Origin: Prevotella sp. E13-17
GTDB lineage: Bacteria; Bacteroidota; Bacteroidia; Bacteroidales; Bacteroidaceae
Length of the DNA stretch: 64,000 nucleotides
Assembly: GCF_022024035.1 (NCBI RefSeq)
Contig: NZ_CP091787.1
Span: 2,822,001 to 2,886,000, forward strand
Reading direction: 5' to 3'
Position 1 is the stretch's first letter; each line of letters starts with the position of its first letter. Below, in pieces: positions 13,849 through 53,700 of this stretch. A program made the position numbers and the translations under genes. The notes below the pieces were generated by a model. The model made no database searches and was not told the origin of the DNA. It saw only the letters and a program-made list of their open reading frames with translations.

Positions 13849-14032
13849 ATAATTATTAAATTATTTTTAAAAGTATGAGTACGCCAATGACATTTTTGAA
13901 CACAAAAAAAAGTGAATAAGTCACGAAATCGCTGATGGAACCGATGTTTTTTTAACCAAAACAGTGAAAACCCGCCTACGGCCATGAGGCATTCTTTTGA
14001 TAGAAATCAATTAAAGTAGAAATCAGATAGAA

Positions 14033-14077
14033 AAAGGACAGGATTACCCCCTCCCTTGGGAGGGTCAGGGTGGAGTT
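14033..14077. repeat. Left copy of a 45-bp direct repeat flanking the phased array
   Basis: Matches 14378-14422 without gaps at 39 of 45 positions. The core is a short G/C-rich dyad, CCCTCCCTTGGGAGGG. It looks like a dispersed REP-like element of the kind seen in Bacteroidales intergenic regions. The two copies bracket the 22-nt array. Confidence 0.75.
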
Positions 14078-14105
14078 GTTCTTGGTCGGGATAGGAACGG
14101 TTTCG

Positions 14106-14391
14106 CACTGTCATAGTGCTGCTTTCGTCTTGTTATAGTTTCGCTTTTGCGTTGTAATAGCTTTACTTTTGATGTCCGTCCAGCCCCTAGATGTGGCGCA
14201 TCCAGCCCCTGGAACGGGTCGTTTTAGCCCCTGGATGCGGTTGTTCTAAGGGCTGGATGTAGAGCATCCAGGGGCTAGACCAGAAATGATAGCTTCGGTT
14301 TTAGACTTCAGAAACGCCTCTTCAAGACTTTAGAATACGTGCTTTTAGACTTTAAAACGACCCTCTCCAGACTCTGGAAAGGACAGAATTA
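14106..14391. repeat. 22-nt phased array of degenerate 13-bp dyads (array 1)
   Basis: Thirteen consecutive 22-nt windows carry a 13-mer element at a fixed offset. Elements starting at 14113, 14135, 14157 and 14289 are of one type (ATAG..6..TTT, for example ATAGCTTTACTTT). Those at 14179, 14201, 14223, 14245 and 14267 are dyads around CCC or GGG (TCCAGCCCCTGGA is perfect). Those at 14300, 14322, 14344 and 14366 are dyads around ACT (TCCAGACTCTGGA is perfect). The last group is shifted by 33 nt, 1.5 periods, so it keeps helical phase. No ORF with coding character crosses it. It forms the main content of the 758-nt gap between 13748 and 14505. The function is unknown. Confidence 0.8.
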
Positions 14392-14422
14392 CTCCCTCCC
14401 TCGGGAGGGCCGGGGTGGGGTT
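14378..14422. repeat. Right copy of the 45-bp direct repeat
   Basis: Partner of 14033-14077 (six mismatches in 45). It overlaps the last dyad of the phased array and precedes the terminator of the minus-strand operon. Confidence 0.75.
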
Positions 14423-14505: not shown

Positions 14506-16347
14506 TCACTTGACAACGACCTTACGGCAACGGCCGTCGGCCTGTCGTTCAACGACGATGCCACGATGACCCTTGGCTGCATCCAGACGCTTACCATCGA
14601 GCGAGAAATACTGCGAAGCACCAACCGAGCCCGTTACCGTTGAATGGACAGCAAGCAGAGTGCTCAAAGAAACGCTGTTGGCATTGATGATATCCTCCTC
14701 CAGCACGTTATCGTCGGTCACACGGTCGGTGGCCTTTGTCAGCAGTGCTATCACGCTGAGGTTGGCAGGCACGAAATCAGTTGGCACCGTATAGCTGACC
14801 TGTTCATGATAGTGTCCTTCGGCATCGGGGGTGAGTTTCTGGCCCAATGGAGCCGTCAAGAAAGCCCGCAACACGTGGTCGTGCAGGTAGTTCTTGTTGG
14901 TGGTAGCACGATCCAGAAGCATGTCATAGCTCACCTGCGGACTCTTCACCCGATCCTCGGTGAGCAGCAGCGTGAGTGCCACATCACCGTAGATGGCACG
15001 TGCCTCCTCCAACAACTGTCCGTCTGCCTGGATAGTCAGCTGACGAGAGTTCTCATTATAGTCGGCCAACACACCCACCGTGGCAAACGACGGGAACTCC
15101 AGGTCTTGCATCACCACATCGCCAATGATGCCAGCCGACATCTCGACGGGGATAGCAGGCAGGTAGTCGTTGACGTCATAGGCTATATAAGCCTCGCCTG
15201 GGAAGTATGAGCGGTTGCTGGTGAAGGTGGGATAGGCATAGGCATAAAGTTCCTCCAGATAGCTGGCGCCATCGACTGCCAGTTCGTTGCCCTTGCGGAA
15301 CACATTGGCAACACAAACCTGTGGAGCTTGCTCCAGCATTTTGCCGACAGCCTTATCAAGGAAAGGCACATAGACCGAGTTCTGGTCGCTATAGATTTCC
15401 AGATAGGCCTGACTGCGATTGACGCGCTCGCGATAGATGGCAAACTGTGCCGTCAGGCTCTTCTCCTTATCGTTGGACAACGCCTCACCCTGCAAACTCT
15501 TGATAAAAGCCTTGATGGTGTGCATGCCTATAGCCAGATTCTCAGGCAGTGCCACCTCATACTGCCAAGAATAAGGCATCGCACTGGGTACATTTTCGTT
15601 AACGGTGGCCTCGACGACAGGCAGGTTGTCTATCTGATAACCCACCACAAAGGTGGTCAGCGTGTCGCGTCCCACATTTTCGAAGTTGGCCAACAGGTCG
15701 AATTTTTCGTTAGGCTGCTTGTATTTGAAGCCCGCATCAAAATACGTGATCTGCATGTCGTGAGCAGGCAAATTGCTCACATCGATAATCAGCTGCACAC
15801 AGAGACGACCGATGCCTGAGATGGGATAGAAGGCCTCGCCGCTACCAAAATTGCCATAGACCATGAAAGAATTTTCCAGATCTTGACCAAAACCGCAGAG
15901 AGCACCCTCACCAGCTTGGGCCATCTCACTACTCTCGTGGTAGTCGAAGCCAAACAGATACTGTACATTTTCCTGTATCGTGATGCCCTCGCCATTGAAG
16001 AAGACAGTGTTCCAGCCTTCATAGGTTTTCTGGTTCTGCGTGTAAAGTTCAACGACACCCGTTTCTCCTACCTTATTAAGAAACACGCGCGTGCGTCCAA
16101 CGCTCTGACTGACGGCAAAACGGATGCCCACAATCTTGCATCCCACATAGGGAGCAGTGGTCTTGGCCGACAACAGTGCACCAACAGGATAGACGCCTTC
16201 CTGACCAATATAGCCACCCTTTGTGGTGATGCTATCGGTCTGAGTATAGCCCAACACGCGCTGGTTGGGAGCCAAGCCCTGCGCCCACGCTACCGAGAAT
16301 GACAGCAACAGGGTTGAGAGCAGTGCAACAATGGTATTCTTTGTCAT
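14506..16347 (-). CDS. Exported Omp28-like protein with T9SS-like tail
   Basis: 613 aa. A signal peptide ends near LSFSVAWAQ (residue ~22). The first ~200 residues form a beta-rich domain (VGCKIVGIRFAVSQ, YLFGFDYHES) like the one seen in exported Bacteroidales adhesin-type proteins. It is followed by an Ig-like stretch starting PAHDMQITYFDAG. Residues ~310-560 match what I recall of the Omp28 region (SQAYLEIYSD, PTFTSNRSYFP, YNENSRQLTIQ). The tail, YFSLDGKRLDAAKGHRGIVVE then CRKVVVK, has the Gly-then-basic pattern of the neighbouring proteins. The start is ATG 16347, whose A is the last base of the upstream TGA, rather than GTG 16350. It is the last gene of a three-gene operon. Confidence 0.8.
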   Translation of the reverse strand: MTKNTIVALLSTLLLSFSVAWAQGLAPNQRVLGYTQTDSITTKGGYIGQEGVYPVGALLSAKTTAPYVGCKIVGIRFAVSQSVGRTRVFLNKVGETGVVELYTQNQKTYEGWNTVFFNGEGITIQENVQYLFGFDYHESSEMAQAGEGALCGFGQDLENSFMVYGNFGSGEAFYPISGIGRLCVQLIIDVSNLPAHDMQITYFDAGFKYKQPNEKFDLLANFENVGRDTLTTFVVGYQIDNLPVVEATVNENVPSAMPYSWQYEVALPENLAIGMHTIKAFIKSLQGEALSNDKEKSLTAQFAIYRERVNRSQAYLEIYSDQNSVYVPFLDKAVGKMLEQAPQVCVANVFRKGNELAVDGASYLEELYAYAYPTFTSNRSYFPGEAYIAYDVNDYLPAIPVEMSAGIIGDVVMQDLEFPSFATVGVLADYNENSRQLTIQADGQLLEEARAIYGDVALTLLLTEDRVKSPQVSYDMLLDRATTNKNYLHDHVLRAFLTAPLGQKLTPDAEGHYHEQVSYTVPTDFVPANLSVIALLTKATDRVTDDNVLEEDIINANSVSLSTLLAVHSTVTGSVGASQYFSLDGKRLDAAKGHRGIVVERQADGRCRKVVVK

Positions 16348-43372: not shown

Positions 43373-43420
43373 CGAAAAAAACTTGTAAAAGCGAAGCGAT
43401 TTTGGAAGAATAACGCTAAC

Positions 43421-43504
43421 CGTTTCTAAGAAACGCTTGCCAAAGCAAGAATTCGGCCTAAAATATAGGAAAGACAGGGATTTAGAGCCCCTTGATAAGG
43501 GGCG
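43421..43504. other. Noncoding stretch with three small perfect hairpins
   Basis: CGTTTCT-A-AGAAACG (43421-43435), CTTGC-CAAA-GCAAG (43436-43449) and GCCCCTT-GAT-AAGGGGC (43488-43504). They lie upstream of metF in the 706-nt gap between 43337 and 44042. No coding frame is supported. They may be remnants of the mobile region next to them. Confidence 0.5.
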
Positions 43505-43570
43505 GCTATAATGCAGCGATATGCAAATTGGGGAGAATCGGTGAAGAAGTTAGGTTTCTAAATCGTAACC

Positions 43571-43692
43571 TCATTTAGCCATCTCCTTCATCTTTGTGAC
43601 GAAACTGTTGAAGCTCGTCAGCAGTTCTTCGACGAGCGAAGCGGCAAGCCGATTACCTCGTAGGTACTGCGCTCAATTGAAATTACTTCCAT
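43571..43692 (-). pseudogene. Decayed small gene of the MEVISIE-type mobile-element HTH family
   Basis: Starts ATG at 43692 with MEVISIERSTYE, the typical opening of small DNA-binding proteins found on Bacteroidetes integrative elements. The frame is then lost; another frame continues RLAASLVEELLTSFNSFV and ends TKMKEMAK-TGA at 43571. A TACCTTTG promoter element stands at 43728-43721. About 40 residues remain, so the HTH part is gone. Suggests that an element was once inserted here. Confidence 0.5.
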
Positions 43693-43720
43693 GTCTTGTT
43701 TCGTTTTTATAATCTGCGGA

Positions 43721-43728
43721 CAAAGGTA
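43721..43728 (-). promoter_or_regulatory. Promoter -7 element of the decayed small gene
   Basis: TACCTTTG on the minus strand, 29 nt before ATG 43692. Confidence 0.45.
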
Positions 43729-43765
43729 CATCATGATTTCCGGATAAGATCACTCTGAAAATTTC

Positions 43766-43917
43766 TTGTTGTGAAATAACAATTCAGGGAAACAAAAGCC
43801 TAATGTCTGCCGAGCTTGCTCATCAGAAAGCAGACACGCATCTTTGTGTGGCACTCCACAGAAAAGTGCGTATTAGGCTACACCCTTCTACGGGAACTGT
43901 TTGCGGTATGGCAAACA
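43766..43917. other. Structured noncoding block with an ideal three-way junction
   Basis: Three structures follow one another. First TTGTTGT-GAA-ATAACAA (43766-43782). Then a junction: P1 AGCCTAAT (43797-43804) with ATTAGGCT (43872-43879); P2 GTCTGC (43805-43810) with GCAGAC (43830-43835); P3 ACGCA (43836-43840) with TGCGT (43867-43871), capped by TGTGG-CACT-CCACA (43847-43860). The three helices abut with no unpaired base between them. Last, TGTTTGC-GGTATG-GCAAACA (43898-43917). No ORF is supported here. It could be a structured RNA, a single-stranded DNA recombination site, or the end of a mobile element; the strand cannot be decided. Confidence 0.55.
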
Positions 43918-43987
43918 AAAGGGAATAACAGGCGACCGCTATTGTGGCATATGTTCATAAAAAACTCTAAAAAAAGAACTTTCTTCT

Positions 43988-44017
43988 TTGTAGGATGAAT
44001 AGTTTTCACTAACTTTA
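43988..44017 (+). promoter_or_regulatory. Promoter of the XRE/GIY-YIG/restriction-modification operon
   Basis: TTG at 43988 and TAACTTTA at 44010-44017, 19 nt apart; the last base departs from the TAnnTTTG consensus, which may make it weak or regulator-dependent. Confidence 0.5.
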
Positions 44018-44042
44018 CACCCAAACAACAAATCTGAAAGAT

Positions 44043-44261
44043 ATGCAAGACGTAAATCGCCTAAAAATTGTGCTCGTAGAACAGAAGAAAACCAGCAAAT
44101 GGTTATCAGAAGCATTGGGGGTAAATCCATCCACCGTTTCCAAATGGTGCACAAATTCGTCGCAACCAGACATCGAGACATTAGCAAAAATCTCGAAGCT
44201 ATTAGATGTGAGTGTAGAGGAACTATTTAATAAGAAGTTCATGGAGTCTGTTGCAAAATAA
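44043..44261 (+). CDS. XRE-family HTH regulator (possible controller protein)
   Basis: 72 aa, a bare Cro/C1-type helix-turn-helix: LKIVLVEQKKTSKWLSEALGVNPSTVSKWCTNSSQPDIETLAKISKLL. The recognition helix is NPSTVSKWC. Size and place, just before a restriction-modification gene on the same strand, fit a C protein that times enzyme expression; this is inference. The base composition is AT-rich compared with the core genes to the left, consistent with transfer of the whole island. Confidence 0.88.
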   Translation: MQDVNRLKIVLVEQKKTSKWLSEALGVNPSTVSKWCTNSSQPDIETLAKISKLLDVSVEELFNKKFMESVAK

Positions 44262-44313
44262 CTACTATGCCAGTAGATAATAATGAAATAGAAATTAACA
44301 GAATCAGAATTAT

Positions 44314-44961
44314 ATGAGCAACAAAGAACCTGGCTATGTTTACATACTGACTAATCCCAGTTTTCGCGAGGATTGGGTGAAGATCGGCAAGAGTTCACGT
44401 CCTGTGGATGTGAGAAGCAAGGAACTGGATAATACTGCCGTTCCCTTGCCCTTCGAGATATTCGCCACAATGAAAACCACGAAATACAACGAGGTAGAGA
44501 AGTTGGTACATAAGACCATTGACCGCCTTACTGACTTACGCATCCGCCAAAACCGCGAGTTCTTCAATGTGGCTCCACAGATGGCCCTCGACATCTTCCG
44601 CGATATTGCCAGTGCGATAGACGATGCCGAAGTAACACTCTACGAAGATAACAAGCCCATCGTGGAAAGCGAACACAAGGAGCCACAGAAGCGAGAGGTG
44701 AAACGCCCCCGTTTTAAGTTCTCCATGTGTGGCATCAAGATTGGTGAACAAGTCACCTTCGACCCAACGGGTCTTGTCGTGAAAGTAGCCTCCGATGACA
44801 GCATCGAATACGAAGGACGCATCTATAAACTCTCCCCCTTCGTTGGCACCTTCATGCCAGAGGAACATTGTAATGCCTCTGGTGCCTATCAAGGTGCCAA
44901 ATATTTCTCGTATAATGGGAAAGTACTGGATGAGATTAGGAAAGAAAAAGAAATAAGTTAG
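44314..44961 (+). CDS. GIY-YIG nuclease-like protein (T5orf172 domain)
   Basis: 215 aa. Residues 8-100 form a GIY-YIG fold of the T5orf172 type: GYVYILTNP, then WVKIGKSSRPVDVRSKEL (the YIG-equivalent and conserved Arg), NEVEKLVHKTI (metal-binding Glu region) and REFFNV (closing Asn). The C-terminal half (RPRFKFSMCGIKIGEQVTFDPTG, IEYEGRIYKLSPF) resembles the short domain often fused to T5orf172 and may bind DNA. It stands 12 nt before the restriction-modification gene and probably belongs to the same defence unit. Confidence 0.83.
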   Translation: MSNKEPGYVYILTNPSFREDWVKIGKSSRPVDVRSKELDNTAVPLPFEIFATMKTTKYNEVEKLVHKTIDRLTDLRIRQNREFFNVAPQMALDIFRDIASAIDDAEVTLYEDNKPIVESEHKEPQKREVKRPRFKFSMCGIKIGEQVTFDPTGLVVKVASDDSIEYEGRIYKLSPFVGTFMPEEHCNASGAYQGAKYFSYNGKVLDEIRKEKEIS

Positions 44962-44973
44962 TATTTCAATAAT

Positions 44974-47900
44974 ATGGCAAACAAACAGACGCATAGCATA
45001 GAAGAAATCGTAGAGCAATGGGCGAAAGAACAACTAAAAGGAATCAAACTCTACGCTAAAAACGATTTTATCAATGCACAAATAGAGAAAGCCCTCAAAA
45101 CTGCTCCATCTAAAAAAGGTGGTAAAGGTCCCAATTATCCTGATATTAAATGCATCATTCCAGCAGCAGATGGTGATATTCCCGTCATGATAGAGGTAAA
45201 GGGGATGAAAGATGCGCTCATCAAGCTCAATGAAGAAACAGGATTGCCTGACAATGTGACAAAAAAAGGTGAGCCAAACTTTACGAATATCGCTAAGTAT
45301 GCTGTCAATGGAGCTGTCCACTATGCAAATGCCATCGTTCGTCATACGACCTACAAAGAAGTGCTTGCCATAGGAGTGAATGGATATAAAGACGAAACTG
45401 ATGAAATTATCTATGAAGTCAGCGCATGGTATCTTTCACGTAAGAATCTTTTCCTACCCAAAGAGATTGGGCGTTACAGCGACCTGTCTTTCCTGTTAAA
45501 GAAGTATCAGCAGACATTGTTGAAGCAACTTGCCAATATTGACCTAACCGAAGAGGAAATAGAACAACAGAAATCCAACTTAGAGGATGATATTGAGCGC
45601 AAGCTTAAGGAACTAAACCAAAAGATGCAGGACGAACTGCGGATTGTTGTTAACCAACGTGTACAGCTTGTAACGGGCTTGATTATGGCTGGGCTTGGGG
45701 TAAAAAATGATGATGGAACATTCAAAGTTCATCCATTGCAAGAAGACGAATTACGTGGTAATACTGACTCGGAAAACAATGATGGAGCCGTTATTATGAG
45801 CAAAATCAAGTCTTACTTGAAGGACAAGAGTCTTCCTATGGAAAAAATAGACATGATCGTCCGTATACTTAAAGTTGTATTTGTCGATTCTGGTTTAGAG
45901 GTGCCTGTCAATGGAGAAAGTAAACTTAAAACATTGTATCATGACATCAAAATTGATATTATCCCCTTCCTGACTGGCGAACTGCATAATCTTGACTTCA
46001 CAGGTAGATTGTTTAATGTTCTGAATGCCTGGGTCGATGTACCAGATGGAGCAAAAAATGACGTTGTACTCACGCCACGTTCTGTTACAGAATTAATGGC
46101 GAAACTCTGTCAGGTGAATAAAGACTCATACGTTTGGGACTTTGCAACAGGTTCTGCAGGATTTCTCATTTCCGCAATGCATTTGATGATTGCCGATGCC
46201 AAAGCTAATATCCCCAATCCGGATGAAAGAACAGAGAAAATCCTACACATCAAGACAGAACAGTTGCTTGGTATAGAGAAACTGGCCGATATATATCTGC
46301 TTGCCGTATTGAATATGATTCTGATGAAAGATGGATCAGCGAACATCATTCAGGGGGATTCCTTGAAGGATTTCAAAGGCAATTATGAACAAGGTGAATT
46401 GAAGGGAAAGCCCTTCCCTGCTGACGTGTTCCTACTGAATCCTCCATATTCCGCTGCAGGCAAAGGTTTTGTATTCGTAAAACGTGCCCTCGGCATGATG
46501 ACACATAAAGGAATGGCCGCCGTACTCATCCAAGAAAATGCTGGCAGTGGCAATGGTTTGCCATATACGAAAGAAATTCTTAAAGGGAATACGCTTGTGG
46601 CTTCAATTAAGATGCCAATAGACTTGTTTATAGGAAAATCATCAGTACAGACAGCTATCTATGTGTTTAAAGTGGGCACACCCCATACGAAGAATTCAGT
46701 AGTGAGGTTTATTGATTTCTCAAATGACGGCTATTCACGTATGAACCGTCGTCATTCCAGTCAAAGTGTAAATCTCCGTGATACCGATAATGCTCATGGG
46801 CGTTATGCTGAAGTCGTAAATTTGGTGCGATATGGAAAGGGTGTTAACAATGAGAATATTAAATACTATAATGGCTCCTATATAGAAGACTATATAACAC
46901 TTAAAGGTAACGATTGGACTTATGGTCAGCACAAAAATATTGACCCCATTCCTACAGATGCAGATTTCCGAAAAGTGGTGAAAGAGTATCTCTCATTGCG
47001 AATATTAGAAATCATTAAGAATGAAGGAGGAAGTGGTTTGGGCATAAAAGACTGTACCTTAACTAGAAAAGACTATGAAGCATTGAGTTTTATAGAAACA
47101 GGACGAATAAAAACTAAGCCAGTGATAATAGGTGATATTCTCACCGGGGAAAAAGGTGATGTTGACATTCAGAATAAGGATATTAATGGTAGAGGATTCT
47201 ATTTTATCAATTCAGGTGTTCAAAACTTTGGAATTAAAGGTAAGACGGATTGCATAGCTAAAGTATTTCCTCCGAATACCATCACAATAGATTTCTTTGG
47301 TAATGCCTATTATAGACCTTTCCACTATGTCATGGCTACACATAACCATGTGTTTTCTCTGTCAGGAGATATAATTAAAAATGAGAATGTGGGATTATAT
47401 CTCAGTGCTTCCATGTCATATTTGAGCAAAATTTACTCATTTAATAACATGGGGACTTGGCCCATTTATAAGACATCTTTGATTTATTTGCCCACAACAA
47501 CCGAGGGAAATATTGACTACGTTTTCATGGATACTTGTATTAGTGCTATCAAGAAACAATGTATCGCAGCACTAATGAAAGCCATAACACAGGATGCTAT
47601 TGTAAATGATCAGGTTTTAGAAATACAACCAACATCTAATAATGTGGTTGAGATGTCTAATCCATCAAGCCATTATTCAGAATATGACTTTGCCCCCTTA
47701 ATGGCAGCCGAACCTTTCGAGTGCTATAAGTGGGAAGGGTTTGACCAAAGCATTTGCGATTTCTTTGGAGGTGACAAAACTATTCTTATTGGGTGCTATA
47801 AGGGGAAGAAATACAAAGATTGGATTCACACCCATAACATTTATACCATAAGGTTAGGGGATACCAAAGGTTCTATGGAAGCTAATCGAAAACTCTTTGA

Positions 47901-48165
47901 AAGTACCTCGTTGCTGGTCTTATATGAACTTGGCAAACCTAACAAACTTTCTGCATATAAGATTGTAGGCAATAAGGAGATGAGTAAAGAAGAACTCTTG
48001 GCTATGGAATATCCAAATAAAAAGCCACGAAAGAGTTATATGACATTTAGCGTCAAACTTCTTGAAATGGATTTGACTTTCTTAATAGAGCACCATCTTG
48101 TTGAAAGGTTGATTGAGCTTAATCCAGAAAATGCGAAAGGTACTCCAGTTTTTATCCAACCTTAA
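44974..48165 (+). CDS. Fused restriction-methylation-specificity enzyme (type IIG/I-like)
   Basis: 1063 aa. N-terminal PD-(D/E)xK nuclease: YPDIK (PD at 56-57) and IEVKG (EVK at 74-76). A helical stretch, including a coiled coil around 185-225, leads to an N6-adenine methyltransferase: WDFATGSAGF (motif I, ~388) and NPPY (motif IV, 489-492). From ~700 to 880 comes an HsdS-like recognition domain (DILTGEKGDV, SLSGDIIKNENVGLYLSASMSYLSKIYSF, TSLIYLP). The last ~170 residues are not recognised. One chain thus carries cleavage, methylation and target recognition. Start ATG 44974. AT-rich like its neighbours. Confidence 0.87.
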   Translation: MANKQTHSIEEIVEQWAKEQLKGIKLYAKNDFINAQIEKALKTAPSKKGGKGPNYPDIKCIIPAADGDIPVMIEVKGMKDALIKLNEETGLPDNVTKKGEPNFTNIAKYAVNGAVHYANAIVRHTTYKEVLAIGVNGYKDETDEIIYEVSAWYLSRKNLFLPKEIGRYSDLSFLLKKYQQTLLKQLANIDLTEEEIEQQKSNLEDDIERKLKELNQKMQDELRIVVNQRVQLVTGLIMAGLGVKNDDGTFKVHPLQEDELRGNTDSENNDGAVIMSKIKSYLKDKSLPMEKIDMIVRILKVVFVDSGLEVPVNGESKLKTLYHDIKIDIIPFLTGELHNLDFTGRLFNVLNAWVDVPDGAKNDVVLTPRSVTELMAKLCQVNKDSYVWDFATGSAGFLISAMHLMIADAKANIPNPDERTEKILHIKTEQLLGIEKLADIYLLAVLNMILMKDGSANIIQGDSLKDFKGNYEQGELKGKPFPADVFLLNPPYSAAGKGFVFVKRALGMMTHKGMAAVLIQENAGSGNGLPYTKEILKGNTLVASIKMPIDLFIGKSSVQTAIYVFKVGTPHTKNSVVRFIDFSNDGYSRMNRRHSSQSVNLRDTDNAHGRYAEVVNLVRYGKGVNNENIKYYNGSYIEDYITLKGNDWTYGQHKNIDPIPTDADFRKVVKEYLSLRILEIIKNEGGSGLGIKDCTLTRKDYEALSFIETGRIKTKPVIIGDILTGEKGDVDIQNKDINGRGFYFINSGVQNFGIKGKTDCIAKVFPPNTITIDFFGNAYYRPFHYVMATHNHVFSLSGDIIKNENVGLYLSASMSYLSKIYSFNNMGTWPIYKTSLIYLPTTTEGNIDYVFMDTCISAIKKQCIAALMKAITQDAIVNDQVLEIQPTSNNVVEMSNPSSHYSEYDFAPLMAAEPFECYKWEGFDQSICDFFGGDKTILIGCYKGKKYKDWIHTHNIYTIRLGDTKGSMEANRKLFESTSLLVLYELGKPNKLSAYKIVGNKEMSKEELLAMEYPNKKPRKSYMTFSVKLLEMDLTFLIEHHLVERLIELNPENAKGTPVFIQP

Positions 48166-48286
48166 TTAATGTATTTATGGGTAAGTAACAACATATTTGA
48201 TAGACGGAGATCCGAAAGGGACTCAATATTTGTTCATCAGCAATAAGATTTGCCAGATGTATGTGATAATTGGAGTATAATTTGTA

Positions 48287-48300
48287 ACGTTTGCAAACGT
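48287..48300. promoter_or_regulatory. Perfect 14-bp palindrome, putative operator
   Basis: ACGTTTGCAAACGT ends 9 nt before ATG 48310. A repressor bound here would block transcription or initiation of the AlbA-type regulator; self-control through its C-terminal HTH is one option. Confidence 0.55.
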
Positions 48301-48309
48301 GATATTAGT

Positions 48310-49839
48310 ATGGACGAGAAAACGATAAAAGAAGCTCTACGGAAAGGTGAACGGGTTACGCTGGAGTGTAAACGGGCTAAGGCAGAGGTCCCGAAGTCGG
48401 TTTGGGCAACTTATTCGGCCTTCGCTAATACGATTGGCGGACTGATTCTGCTTGGCGTGAATGAAGACCTGCAGGAGAGAAACATCTTGAAGCGTTACCA
48501 GATAGTTGGTGTGGATGAGCCGATGAAGATTATCACGGACTTCTGGAACACCCTCAACAGCGACAAGGTGAATGAGAACATCCTTCTTGACAACGATGTT
48601 GAGGTGGTAAATGTGGATGGAGCGCAGATTGTTTGCATTCATGTTCCGCAGGCAGACTGGAGAGCAAAGCCCATCTATCTGAACGGAAATGTATATAAAG
48701 GTACGTATAGGCGCAACAATGAAGGTGACTATCATTGTACAGAGGCTCAGGTGAAAGCGATGATACGTGACTCCAATGTGGATGGCAACGATAGCATCCT
48801 GATAGAATACTATGGTATGGATGACATTGATCCAGATTCCTTGCGTCAGTACCGTACCGAGTTTAGGCAGGAGAATAGTACCCACGTTTGGAACAGGGTT
48901 GACGATAAGACTTTCCTCAGAAATCTTGGTGGCTATACTGAGGACAGACAGACTGGCAGAGAGGGATTGACGCTGGCCGGACTGATGATGTTTGGAAAGG
49001 GACTTGCCATAAGAGACAGGTTCTCCAATTTTCGTATGGACTATTTAGACATGAGCCATCTGGTGGGTGATGAGCGGTATCATGACCGACTGACATACGA
49101 CGGGTTATGGGAGAATAACCTGTATCAGTTCTTCCGCATCGTATCACCAAAGGTTCAGTTCGACCTGCCGAGACCTTTCAAATTGGAGAAAGGCGGCAAG
49201 AGGAATGATGACACACCTCAACATGAGGCTGTTCGTGAAGCCTTTACCAATGCCATTATCCACTGCGACCTGATGATGGATGCTGGCATTCTGAGAATAG
49301 AGAAGCATGATGACCGTCTATGTTTCCGCAATCCAGGACTATTGAAGTTGCCAGTAGAGGCCATCTATCGGGGCGGTAACTCAAAGGCTCGTAATCCAAA
49401 GATTCAGAATATGCTTCGGATGATTGGTTTTGGTGAGAATGTCGGCTCTGGATTCCCCAAGATTATTGCAGCATGGAAAGAAACCAACTGGGGTGAGCCA
49501 CAGCTGATGAATAAACTGGATGTTGACGAAGTGGAACTTGTACTGCCTGTGCCATCGGTTAAGTCAAGCACGACCGAGTTGTCTAATGAGTTATCCATAG
49601 AGTTGCCTGAAGGGTTGTCTATAAGGTTATCTAAAGAGTTGTCTAAAGGGTTATCTGAAACTGCTGCTAACATATATAAGATGATATATGCAGATAATTA
49701 TATCACAAGAAGTGATATTGCGAATAGAATCGGAATATCTGTAACAGCAGTCCAAAAGCATATCAATAAACTTAAATCATTGAGATTCATTGACCGTGAC
49801 GGATCTACTGGTCATGGTAATTGGAGAGTAATAAAGTGA
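48310..49839 (+). CDS. AlbA_2/Schlafen-type ATP-binding transcriptional regulator
   Basis: 509 aa from ATG 48310; the open frame begins 20 codons earlier but crosses the 14-bp palindrome. The N-terminal AlbA_2 domain (~15-130) has VTLECKRAK, YSAFANTIGGLILLGVNE and GTYRRNNEGDYHCT. The central part has HATPase_c_4-type motifs: HEAVREAFTNAIIHCD and GFGENVGSGFPKI. A tetrapeptide repeat linker (LSxE, seven copies) leads to a winged HTH (ITRSDIANRIGISVTAVQKHINKLKSLRF). Members are often annotated as RecG-like regulators and turn up in defence islands; the role of this one is unknown. It is 144 nt after the restriction gene and likely has its own promoter. Confidence 0.85.
   Translation: MDEKTIKEALRKGERVTLECKRAKAEVPKSVWATYSAFANTIGGLILLGVNEDLQERNILKRYQIVGVDEPMKIITDFWNTLNSDKVNENILLDNDVEVVNVDGAQIVCIHVPQADWRAKPIYLNGNVYKGTYRRNNEGDYHCTEAQVKAMIRDSNVDGNDSILIEYYGMDDIDPDSLRQYRTEFRQENSTHVWNRVDDKTFLRNLGGYTEDRQTGREGLTLAGLMMFGKGLAIRDRFSNFRMDYLDMSHLVGDERYHDRLTYDGLWENNLYQFFRIVSPKVQFDLPRPFKLEKGGKRNDDTPQHEAVREAFTNAIIHCDLMMDAGILRIEKHDDRLCFRNPGLLKLPVEAIYRGGNSKARNPKIQNMLRMIGFGENVGSGFPKIIAAWKETNWGEPQLMNKLDVDEVELVLPVPSVKSSTTELSNELSIELPEGLSIRLSKELSKGLSETAANIYKMIYADNYITRSDIANRIGISVTAVQKHINKLKSLRFIDRDGSTGHGNWRVIK
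49576..49659 (+). repeat. Seven tandem 12-nt repeats coding for LSxE linker
   Basis: Units such as GAGTTGTCTAAT, GAGTTATCCATA and GGGTTGTCTATA encode LSNE, LSIE, LPEG, LSIR, LSKE, LSKG and LSET. The period of 12 nt keeps frame, so copy number can change without loss of the protein. It connects the ATPase part to the winged HTH. Confidence 0.85.
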
Positions 49840-49933
49840 CAGGCAAACTCAGAAGAAAAAGTGATGGGTTGATTTGACGCTTTCAAAAAGAATGCTTACC
49901 TTTGAGCCTGCATCTCGAAGTTACTCACGTTCG

Positions 49934-49960
49934 AAAATACTCAAATAAATTTGGTATTTT
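49934..49960. promoter_or_regulatory. 27-bp near-perfect inverted repeat over a -33 box
   Basis: AAAATAC-T-CAAAT-AA-ATTTG-GTATTTT. The right arm contains the TTG (49951-49953) of the promoter ending at 49981, so a dimeric regulator bound here would interfere with that promoter. Confidence 0.55.
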
Positions 49961-49981
49961 GCTCACTCATTCGTAACTTTG
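49951..49981 (+). promoter_or_regulatory. Promoter in the long intergenic region
   Basis: TTG at 49951 and TAACTTTG at 49974-49981, 20 nt apart, a full consensus. No plausible gene follows within 700 nt; a hairpin begins at 49982. Confidence 0.65.
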
Positions 49982-50120
49982 CACCCGATGATGAGTCATA
50001 GTACGGCTGGTGGCTCACCGTCGGGTGTTCTTTCTTGCGTCCCGTTGGTAGCAAGCGAGCATAGCTCGAGCGGATGCAGTTTATAGCAGGATGCGGAATT
50101 GAGTACGGTTGCCAATTCGT
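49982..50120 (+). ncRNA. Candidate small structured RNA
   Basis: Right after the promoter come three stems: CACCCGA (49982-49988) with TCGGGTG (50021-50027), extended by TGAG/CTCA inside; CGAGC-ATA-GCTCG (50056-50068); and GAATTG (50096-50101) with CAATTC (50113-50118). A T-rich stretch follows at 50124-50132. No reading frame here has coding character. Part of the first stem may lie before the transcription start, since only about 5 nt separate it from the -7 element. No known RNA family is claimed. Confidence 0.4.
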
Positions 50121-50287
50121 AACCCAGTTTTTCCTCAATCCTCCAGACAGCCTTTATGCAAAGAAATTCTGCGATTTCTTACAAAGCAACGAAAAAAACG
50201 AGGGAAGAACAAAAGAAATAACAGGAAAAAGTGGCAGTTTTAAGGCATAAAAGGGCAACTATTATTAGATGAGAGTTAAGGAATAGG

Positions 50288-50485
50288 CGTGCAATAGTTT
50301 TACTTTTGGTGGCAATCTAGAGTCTAGAAAGGATGATTCTAGGGGCTAGAAATGACTAATCTAGGGGCTAGAATGAACTCATCTAGGGGCTAGAATAGAC
50401 TGATCTAGGGGCTAGAATCAAACTAAAAGTAAAGGTATTGCAAGATAAAACGGATGCTTTAAGTGAGGAAAAGTGTAGGTTTAAG
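50288..50485. repeat. 22-nt phased array of 13-bp dyads (array 2)
   Basis: Five 13-mers start at 50316, 50338, 50360, 50382 and 50404, exactly 22 nt apart; four are the perfect dyad TCTAGGGGCTAGA and the first is TCTAGAGTCTAGA. On the left, one period away (50294), is ATAGTTTTACTTT; on the right, one period away (50426), the same type of element occurs inverted (AAAGTAAAGGTAT). Two further 22-nt units end in TTTAAG (50442-50463 and 50464-50485). With the candidate RNA and promoter elements this is the content of the 864-nt gap from 49840 to 50703. Confidence 0.85.
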
Positions 50486-50600
50486 CCCCCCAAAAGGGCT
50501 ATTTTCCTCAACAAAGACGTTAGAAATGGAAAATGGAAATTTAGCGATGAAATGGGCGAAAAATAAAAATTGCAGGTCAGAAATATTACAATTTTTCACG

Positions 50601-50642
50601 TTTGGCACAAACGGAAAGTACTTTGGCACAAACGGAGAGTGA
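50601..50642 (+). promoter_or_regulatory. Two tandem 21-nt direct repeats upstream of the GH38 operon
   Basis: TTTGGCACAAACGGA followed by A/G-AGT occurs at 50601 and again at 50622, exactly 21 nt (two helical turns) apart, ending 18 nt before the -7 element at 50661. The place and spacing fit an activator binding as a dimer, such as the AraC-type output domain of a hybrid two-component regulator; one begins at 63893. Confidence 0.65.
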
Positions 50643-50660
50643 AATTAATTCCTAATCGCA

Positions 50661-50668
50661 TAACTTTG
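50661..50668 (+). promoter_or_regulatory. Promoter -7 element of the mannosidase-SusCD operon
   Basis: TAACTTTG, 35 nt before ATG 50704. No TTG at the usual -33 distance, consistent with need for an activator. Confidence 0.6.
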
Positions 50669-50703
50669 CGGTCGAAAAAACCTAAAATCGCTAAATAGTA
50701 ATA

Positions 50704-53700
50704 ATGAGTCAACACAAAACCTTAATTAGGTTGTATTTATTGTTTCTACTGGTCATGCCTCAGCGCATGTCTGGTCAGACGGCTGAGGGTACGCTCTTCT
50801 TCATCTCAAATTCACATTTAGACACACAATGGAACTGGGATGTGCGTACCACCATTAGCGAATACGTGCGCAACACGTTGCAACAGAACTTCACACTACT
50901 AGACAAATATCCCAACCTGGTTTTCAATCACGAAGGAGCCATCCGCTACATGTGGATGAAAGAATACTACCCCGAACTCTATGCCCAACTCAAAGAATAC
51001 GTAGCCCAAGGGCGCTGGCACATTAGTGGCTGCGCTATAGATGCCAACGACGTGATGGTGCCATCGGCAGAGTCCGTGATGCGCAACTGGCTCTGTGCCA
51101 ATCAGTTCTTCAAGCAGGAGTTTGGCGTGCGTGGAGGCTACGACGTGATGCTGCCCGACTGTTTCGGTTTCTCATACGCCCTACCCTCGCTGATGCACCA
51201 CTGTGGTTTCAAAGGGTTTCACACGGCCAAACTGGCATGGGGTTCGGCCGACTACGATCAACTGCCTCCCTTCGGCATTTGGCAGGGTGTTGACGGTTCG
51301 CAGGTGTATGCTGTCTATAAGCCCGGTGCCTACGACAACCACGAGCAGTACAACAAAAACATGGCCACCGACAGCGAGATGGCAAGCATCATTGCTGACA
51401 ACCATCATAAATATGGTGTGGCTGCCGAGATTCGCTATGTCGGTCCACGAAGCGACCGTGGCGGCGGTCTGCAAGACAATGCCTCGCAGCAAGGTGAAAA
51501 CACCCCCTATTGGCTGAACCTCAGCGCCAAGACCGAGGGTGCCACCAACGTCAAGATGGCCACACCCGATGAAATCTTCGATTTCCTTGACCAGCACAAA
51601 AACAGTAAATATCACGTAAAGAATGGTGAGCTGCCCATGCGCACTCACGGCGTAGGTGCCTATACCTCGCGCACCATGCTGAAGCGGTGGAATCGCAAGA
51701 ACGAGCTGTTGGCTGACGCCTGTGAAAAGGCTGCCTCGCTGGCCCAGTGGTTGGGCGTTCAAGCCTACCCACAGACTGAGATCAACGAGGCTTGGGTGCG
51801 CAATCTATGGCAGTCGCACCACGACGGCATCACGGGCACCAGCATCCCCAACGCCTACTATTACTCCGTAGGCGACTACGTGCTGGTCAACAAATCGCTG
51901 GCACAGACCATGGCCACAACAGCAGGCAGCATCGTCAGCAGAATGAACACACAGACAGAAGGACTACCAGTGGTTGTCTTCAACCCTCTGTCGTTCACCC
52001 GTACAGACATTGTGGAAGGCAAGCTAAAAACCGACGAAAATCCCGATGGAATCGCCGTTTTCTGCAAAGACGGCACCGAGGTTCTTTCACAGATAAGCCA
52101 CTACGACGAGACCACCGGCGAACTGACGTTCATCTTCGCCGCCACCGTACCTTCGCTGGGCTACGCCACCTACGACGTCAGACTGGGCGAAGCCTCGTCC
52201 ATGACATCCGACCTGCAGGCCAGCAAGCGCACCCGCCAGTTGTCCAACGGCCAATACCGCTTGACACTCTCTAGCACGGGCAACCCCATGCAGCTTATCA
52301 ACATGGCCACAGGCACCAACCTGCTCGCCAACTCGCAATTGCAGATGATCTACGACCATGAAGACGCATGGCCCTCGTGGGAAATCTCCTATACCGACAT
52401 ACAGCGCCAGCCAGAGCTTGTAGACGAGAATGTCACCATCGAACTGGCCGAAGACGGTCCGCTGCGCAAGAGCTTCCGAGTGGTCAGAGAGAAAAACGGT
52501 TCTACTTTTGTGCAGTATGTACGCATGAACGCGCTGAACAACCGCATAGACATTGACAACGAAGCCGACTGGCAGTCGCGTGGACGTATGCTGAAAGCCT
52601 GTTTCAAGACACCCTTCGGCACCCCGAAAGCCACCTACGACCTCTCGCTGGGCACCATCGAGCGTGGCAACCGCAACAGGAACCAATACGAGGTGCAGGG
52701 CCACCAGTGGGCCGACCTTTCGACCACCGACGGCAGTTATGGCCTGTCTATTCTCAACGACTGCAAATATGGTTGGGACAAGCCCGACGACTACACCCTT
52801 CGACTGACCCTGATTCACACGCCATCTACAGGCAACAACTACACCTACCAGGCCGATCAGGACTTAGGTGTGAACCTGTTCACCTACGCCCTTTTTCCCC
52901 ACGATGGGGCATGGAGCCAGCAGACGCAGATGGCAGCTGCACAGCTCAACCAGCCATTGCTGGCGTTCACTGCGCCGAAACACGACGGTACGCTGAATCC
53001 CAAGGCCAGCCTCGTCTCGCTGAACACCGACCAGGTATCGGTGAAGGCTGTGAAGAAAGCCGAGGAGAGCGACGAGCTGATTGTGCGCGTCTATGAATGG
53101 AGCGGACAGCACCACGACCGCGTCAGCATGACATTCCCCGCCGACATCCTCTCGGCTCGTGAGGTCAACGGACTGGAAGAATCACTTGGCGAAGCCAGCT
53201 ACGACGGTCGTACGCTGGTCTTCGACATCGAGAAATACCAACCCAAGACCTTTGCCGTGAAGTTGCAGACGACCGGCGTACAGCCCTCGTCAACCGACGA
53301 GACTTCAACAACCATCGCCCTACCCTACAATGCCGACGTGATGAGCTATGACTCGAAGAAGAACGATGTGCAGGGCATCAGCGACCTGGCCTATCCTGCC
53401 GAGCAGATACCCGATGTGCTGACCACGGGTGGTGTGGCATTCACCATGGGCAGTCGCGCAGGTGGCGATAAGAATGCGGTGCGCTGCAACCAGCAGACCA
53501 TCGACCTCACAACGGCTAAAGGGCGCAAGCTATACCTGCTCATGGCCTCAACCAACAAAAAAGGTACGATGGCCGAGATAAAGATTGACGGTCAAACCTA
53601 CCACATCGAAGTGCCCTACTACGGTGGCGTGACAGGTCAGCTGGCTTCGCCCTACAATACCGGCACCCACTATCGCCAACAAGACGTAGCCCTCTGCACC

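Follow-up and report, generated by a model that had tools for sequence, protein, structure and literature searches.

BIMEs and REP clusters are described as abundant extragenic palindromic units that are combined as mosaics, as are the elements of the array 2 family. IHF binds BIMEs, and E. coli REP units are longer and are not known to lie in one 22-bp register. The family studied here likewise consists of palindromic units that vary in number and are assembled into mosaics outside genes; what sets it apart from BIMEs is its shared 4-5-4 layout, the presence of two kinds of unit and a middle that changes fast. The STAR elements of Staphylococcus aureus also lie between genes and combine a short conserved core with variable spacers, but their core is a different one and their spacing is longer. 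CRISPR arrays are built from near-identical repeats of at least 21 bp with spacers of about 30 bp, which the 13-bp cores and 9-bp spacers found here do not match. In E. coli, BIME-2 is described as bound and cut by gyrase (PMC6379681). The 130-bp motif of gyrase and the strong gyrase sites described in the same source share with the present elements a helically periodic arm composition around a centre, as fits wrapping; the motif differs in being a statistical motif of E. coli, described there without dyad units of two types, and the likeness here is compositional. PINSR, a 188-bp repeat of Prevotella intermedia/nigrescens with 177 and 184 copies in two strains, is also intergenic, lineage-specific and without terminal inverted repeats; compared by description only, it differs in having one consensus sequence, and no 22-bp dyad plan is reported in the description used (PMC4755523). 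BrickBuilt, a MITE of Porphyromonas gingivalis, is described with 23-nt direct repeats without spacers, 19 copies, and a leader and a tail (PMC4596501). It resembles the present family in its short tandem bricks, its position between genes of a Bacteroidales genome and its carriage by a MITE, and the family departs from that description in its period of 22 bp, its dyad cores, its variable spacers and the lack of MITE ends at array 2. RepRanger (PMC12306157) lists Bacteroidota genomes, and the part of this source considered here makes no mention of Prevotella. Literature searches, with subscription papers outside their coverage, found no publication on this 22-bp dyad repeat.

Architecture and register of the element

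The window analysed here is the whole 64-kb stretch at positions 2822001-2886000 of the 3.45-Mb contig. The first-pass annotation had described array 2 as five dyads 22 nt apart, with a cap one period away on either side, and this layout was confirmed. The dyads start at 50316, 50338, 50360, 50382 and 50404, the first being TCTAGAGTCTAGA and the other four all TCTAGGGGCTAGA, and the caps are ATAGTTTTACTTT (50294-50306) and AAAGTAAAGGTAT (50426-50438; reverse complement ATACCTTTACTTT). A cap had also been reported for array 1, and ATAGCTTTACTTT at 14157-14169 does lie one period ahead of the dyad at 14179. The statement that inverted caps bound array 2 stands in so far as both caps are present; it is incomplete as a boundary, in that about four B units stand on each side of the A block and only the innermost ones are the caps, thus two of eight B units, each itself dyadic. 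Core and caps form the middle of a larger 277-bp intergenic element that extends beyond the earlier description and follows the plan four B, five A, four B dyads, with every step 22 bp (Table 1). The A dyad is TCTAGNNNCTAGA, with the triplet CCC/GGG, ACT/AGT or, less often, ACC/GGT. The B dyad is AWAG-N5-CTWT, often AWAGTGSCACTWT, and B spacers are often like TGCANTGCA. The 22-bp units are made up of 13-bp cores and 9-bp spacers.

Table 1. Features of arrays 1 and 2 in window coordinates, and identity between orthologues by part of the element. The unit score cut was 2; units marked weak fall under it. Identities come from 15 pairs representing 12 elements of the present genome, with the duplicate locus L133 left out.
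Feature	Position	Strand	Remark
Whole array 2 element, 13 units x 22 bp, B4-A5-B4	50228..50504		genome 2872228-2872504; profile score 154.5
Array 2 left B units at 50228, 50250, 50272 (weak, 1.7) and 50294 (left cap)	50228..50306		units and spacers almost the same in L088 and L091
Array 2 A block, five TCTAGNNNCTAGA dyads, triplets AGT, GGG, GGG, GGG, GGG	50316..50416		8 units in RUI122 L088, 7 in X. brevis L091
Array 2 right B units at 50426 (right cap), 50448, 50470 and 50492 (weak, 1.6)	50426..50504		printed 22-nt register
Array 1 main block: four B, five A (CCC CCC CCC GGG GGG), two more B-scoring units	14091..14323		unit-profile scan
Array 1 second block: four A units of ACT type, shifted by half a unit (5.5 units past first A unit)	14300..14378		unit-profile scan
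MITE-like repeat fragment carrying array 1, both true ends absent in window copy	13991..14380	+	family comparison
A arm			ortholog identity 643/724 (0.888)
B core			ortholog identity 1176/1380 (0.852)
Flank			ortholog identity 631/786 (0.803)
B spacer			ortholog identity 753/951 (0.792)
A spacer			ortholog identity 397/652 (0.609)
A triplet			ortholog identity 131/216 (0.606)
Register units under score cut			ortholog identity 207/235 (0.881), as conserved as A arms

The earlier proposal of a dispersed element with one grammar, made from two loci, is borne out and can be put more strongly. With up to one mismatch, TCTAGNNNCTAGA occurs seven times in the window (shuffle mean 1.4; none of 100 shuffles reached seven), and exact copies occur at 59 places in the genome against two for the reversed control; ATAGNTTTACTTT occurs 33 times (19 + 14 on the two strands) against once for the control. 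The first 400 kb, taken as an arbitrary stretch, were scanned with a unit profile; scores rose to 186, against 15.5 in one simulated sequence. Twelve merged elements in this stretch scored at least 70, and at this density a whole genome would carry about 100. Of 31 sampled elements, 12 have a checked counterpart at the orthologous locus in Xylanibacter brevis ATCC 19188 (X. brevis) or Prevotella sp. RUI122 (RUI122), a count in which presence is favoured by the fetching of the relatives' loci mostly through the A pattern. The commonest plan is bbbbAAAAAbbbb. Of 38 A blocks in the present genome, 28 have five units, nine have four and one has three; in the comparison of three genomes, five-unit blocks make up 29 of 39 in the present genome, 31 of 41 in X. 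brevis and 20 of 32 in RUI122, near-identical copies being included in these counts. Several elements carry a second A block, mostly ACT-type, that is shifted by half a unit. Within each block the triplets are uniform, with a value of 0.890 in the present genome (shuffle mean 0.551) and, in the comparison of three genomes, of 0.893 there (0.560), 0.681 in X. brevis (0.475) and 0.808 in RUI122 (0.459); spacer identity is 0.417 within blocks and 0.335 between them.

The register was also found independently of sequence, by a graded autocorrelation of dyads that was used in place of a strict count of perfect dyads, because the latter was too insensitive. In four sets from the present genome only lag 22 exceeded 6 sd, and in X. 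brevis lags 22 and 33 did so; over the whole 400 kb, lag 22 reached 10.7 and lag 36 reached 6.0. The strict count placed lag 22 first in one of three sets from the present genome, in the window and in X. brevis. Where one strong unit follows another at 20-24 nt, the step was exactly 22 nt in 277 of 279 cases in the present genome, where elements were located by register scan, and in 159 of 161 in orthologous segments, which were cut by their flanks; the remainder were 23. In the present genome a further 71 steps were 11 nt, from the half-phase dyads, and 19 were 44 nt. Net indels in the element alignments, edges included, were multiples of 11 in only 15 of 45 cases.

Mobility and turnover of units

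The first-pass annotation had raised the explanation that the arrays are part of a transposon, and this applies to array 1 and fails for array 2. Array 1 lies in a MITE-like repeat present at at least 29 places including itself, with 91-97% identity over 244-412 bp. The copies were found through one exact B unit and may therefore exceed 29; one further copy shows in L223. Five copies have both ends and measure 428 to 699 bp. Their ends, GGCTCA/TGAGCC, are terminal inverted repeats, and the 8-bp target duplications are perfect in four of the five and agree in 7/8 bases in the fifth. One copy (L225) carries no array. Around array 2 (49600-51200) there is no bounding GGCTCA/TGAGCC pair, and the MITE matches array 2 only inside the array. 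The IS1595 transposase family (PF12762) was dropped as the parent of the MITE, having no matches in the present genome, and a search for empty sites was uninformative, with the neighbourhoods of L087 and L108 rearranged. On either side of array 1 stands a copy of a module, GGACAG-ATTAC-CCTCCC-GGGAGGG (window 14040-14080 and 14374-14420), the two being similar, and stretches resembling it also lie beside some other elements. One copy of the array 1 repeat (L192:2028-2304) adjoins a match to the Y1 tyrosine transposase (genome 1135871-1136230).

The locus of array 2 is common to three genomes. Its B units and spacers hardly differ between the present genome, X. brevis and RUI122, and the A units number five, seven and eight, respectively, with differing triplets. 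Over the orthologous pairs, A spacers and triplets (61%) diverge faster than flanks (80%), while A arms keep 89% identity (Table 1). Pair by pair, the A spacer lay below the flank in 15 of 15 and the A arm above it in 11 of 15, it being noted that repeat alignments may pair wrong units and so depress A-spacer identity. B cores are only slightly above flanks. A blocks are replaced within conserved frames, often still with five units. For example, L029 and L058, with flanks about 98% identical, keep most B units and have different A blocks (five versus four units). Conversely, among the matches listed, L117/L121 and L033/L034/66957 share A blocks and differ in their outer B units. From these shared and replaced A blocks we infer ectopic exchange between elements, with units exchanged in register as the proposed cause of the replacements.

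Such exchange also enters a rival reading, in which the arrays are decayed, recombining mobile repeats without host function that descend from MITE-like elements, with dyads and register maintained by mutual conversion. The MITE-like family of array 1 with its target duplications, the A blocks shared, among the matches listed, by elements with different neighbours, and the uniform triplets within blocks favour this reading. However, conversion should homogenise spacers too, and their identity is 0.417 within and 0.335 between blocks, while A arms are conserved and evolve more slowly than the flanks in most pairs. In addition, array 2 has no MITE ends and occupies the same locus in three genomes. 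We therefore regard a purely mobile origin as possible and rather doubtful.

The set-wise behaviour of the triplets likewise bears on a reading of the A dyads as recombination or inversion sites, with palindromic arms around a 3-bp crossover and a recombinase that reshuffles and flips units. Triplets are uniform per block and change as a set between orthologues, and the number of A units varies (5, 8, 7). RUI122 L118 and X. brevis L104 have similar spacers, and ACT stands against AGT at four of the five units, as a flip of the cores would give. Against this, flipped triplets were found in only two of 60 A units mapped between the present genome and its orthologues, and no link to a recombinase was seen in the one family searched, Y1_Tnp. 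Matches to Y1 tyrosine transposases number three in the present genome, four in X. brevis and none in RUI122, and an element lies within about 1.5 kb at one of six examined loci. Site-specific inversion is thus a very improbable account of the A dyads; RAYT as the spreading enzyme was dropped as well, as it shows no consistent link to the elements at these loci.

Double-stranded DNA or RNA

Composition and covariation were analysed in 101 of 112 blocks, nine near-identical copies and blocks of fewer than four units being left out. In 564 B units, A+T content peaks at positions 21-2 and 10-13, that is once per 11 bp; its amplitude is 0.113 at 11 bp, nearly as high at 5.5 bp (0.103) and 0.009 at 22 bp. 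B arm pair 1-11 consists of A or T in about 0.9 of cases and is complementary in only 0.367, which is under the expectation for independence, and covariation is absent at pairs 3-9 and 4-8. Other pairs covary: A 2-10 (+0.097), A 5-7 (+0.12), A 1-11 (slightly, +0.017), B 0-12 (+0.07) and B 5-7 (+0.142). Selection for a stem leaves the arm positions that do not covary unexplained, and shape or minor-groove readout could account for them instead. Arm covariation thus mostly weighs against a hairpin.

Nevertheless, the element might work as RNA or single-stranded DNA, either as a string of small stem-loops or as one long hairpin, and serve as a target of an RNA-binding protein, a terminator or a stabiliser of mRNA 3' ends. 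On paper, an A unit forms a 5-bp stem with a 3-nt loop. Array 2 folds more stably than shuffled sequences, with z -4.1 on the plus and -4.7 on the minus strand, T-G mismatches (89) outnumber C-A mismatches (36) when units are oriented by the loop C, and some arm pairs covary. The folds of array 2 pair the left and right caps, and the suggestion that its two sides are inverted copies holds for array 2 itself (0.73, among the top of 106 blocks). It does not hold in general, the halves of an element being no more complementary to each other (0.476) than to those of other elements (0.497), and the long hairpin was rejected for lack of average element-specific complementarity across the 106 blocks. 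Loop orientation is mixed within many blocks, therefore a single transcript strand would carry differing loops. Five of 30 elements lie between divergent genes, B pair 1-11 is less complementary than expected by chance, and Rfam gave no match at E up to 1 in window 49800-50800. A role as RNA or single-stranded DNA is therefore unlikely.

Taken together, the element probably acts as double-stranded DNA. Close relatives keep the frame and differ in the middle bricks, a pattern that speaks for protein-docked or wrapped DNA more than for a gene or an RNA. With moderate confidence, we propose that the array 2 family represents helically phased putative protein-docking or wrapping sites between genes, BIME-like in role. 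The 22-bp unit would correspond to two helical turns and is dyad-symmetric, so that a dimeric DNA-binding protein, or a DNA-wrapping enzyme such as gyrase, could sit on every second turn on the same face. Bending or wrapping would be eased by the A+T-phased arms of the B units, and the A block may supply specific sites plus a set length. Short ectopic recombination would exchange units in register among elements, and one array may have been taken up and dispersed by a MITE. In a BIME-like role, the elements would likely anchor chromosome structure or supercoiling next to genes, perhaps with a preference for sites between convergent genes. It is tempting to go further, and very tentatively, about 100 such putative protein-wrapping platforms might form a new class of Prevotella chromosome-architecture element, with dyads every second turn, A+T-phased B arms and a five-site central specificity cassette that is swapped as a block.

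To our knowledge, chromosome organisation in Bacteroidota is poorly known. The exact two-turn register, the countable plan and the natural variants of the middle at fixed loci could serve as bait for finding the reader protein, and these variants double as controls for phase, unit number and triplet type. The family also offers a case of extragenic repeats seen changing in register inside conserved frames, and of a MITE spreading a ready-made array.

Relatives and genomic context

In the collection of named genomes, the double dyad was found in 75 stretches, of which X. brevis holds 38 and RUI122 31 (69 together). Four of the remaining six were examined: those of RUG12190, a Xanthomonas plasmid and Falcatimonas are arrays without the plan, and Sheep_2_mag_37 has A units alone. 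In the latter stretch (L097:165-297, on a 3-kb contig that may be misbinned), A-type units follow one another, most of them GGT, with no B unit among them. The B core AWAGTGSCACTWT occurs 152 times in X. brevis, 82 times in RUI122 and not in Sheep_2_mag_37 (controls 2, 2 and 0). Among 150 genomes of the genus, TCTAGGGGCTAGA was present in the present genome alone, and TCTAGRGKCTAGA was present in 10 of 299, with 58 occurrences in the present genome, 195 in G280 and one to six in the other eight.

A loose B pattern was searched in 936 kb from 28 other genomes of the genus, arranged in 24 sets with five short contigs pooled. Triples occurred nine times at lag 22 (six loci) versus seven times over all 30 other lags together; for pairs the excess was weaker, with 54 at lag 22 versus 21-47 elsewhere. 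One of the six loci is an ordinary tandem repeat (G024), three lie in G044, the genome with the largest sample (180 kb), enlarged following an initial match, and two in G065. The loci of G044 and G065 include AAAGGCGGCCTTT and AAAGGCCGCCTTT with TGCATTGCA and TGCAATGCA spacers. Therefore, short B-type arrays without A blocks exist in at least two other sampled genomes (2 of 28), which suggests that the grammar is wider than the clade. The loose B pattern alone detects these arrays; the graded dyad statistic misses both (lag 22 at 4.3 in G044 and 4.2 in G065), and a profile trained on X. brevis found nothing at threshold 22 in the other genome sets. G003 and G009, with strong lags other than 22, and G028, where lag 22 stems from near-identical 22-bp repeats, were not counted as the same element. 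Unrelated near-identical 22-bp tandem repeats of four to five copies occur in two other genomes of the genus (L144:1545-1635 and 14682-14768; L141:13816-13914).

All 31 strong elements are intergenic by our own codon-usage gene calls, made with no published gene finder, two of them reaching into the end of a gene, by 44 bp and by 4 bp. Neighbouring genes are oriented ++ at ten, +- at nine, -- at six and -+ at five of these elements, with one unresolved; for the 12 elements of the arbitrary stretch the numbers are five, three, two and two. Convergent neighbours are thus seen at nine of 30 elements versus 25 of 221 gene pairs (p 0.0097) in a set that was partly picked by TCTAG matches and includes MITE copies, and at three of the unchosen 12.

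Array 2 itself lies between an SLFN/AlbA-type gene and a GH38 alpha-mannosidase gene. The stretch from the MTHFR gene to array 2 (window 43381-50181) is a variable spot between genomes: here it holds an N6-methylase/S-domain fusion, a T5orf172 protein and the SLFN/AlbA-type gene, while its counterpart is a different sequence in X. brevis and about 70 bp in RUI122. Upstream of the GH38 gene, TTTGGCACAAACGGARAGT occurs twice as direct copies 21 nt apart (window 50601-50640), perhaps as an operator or promoter feature.
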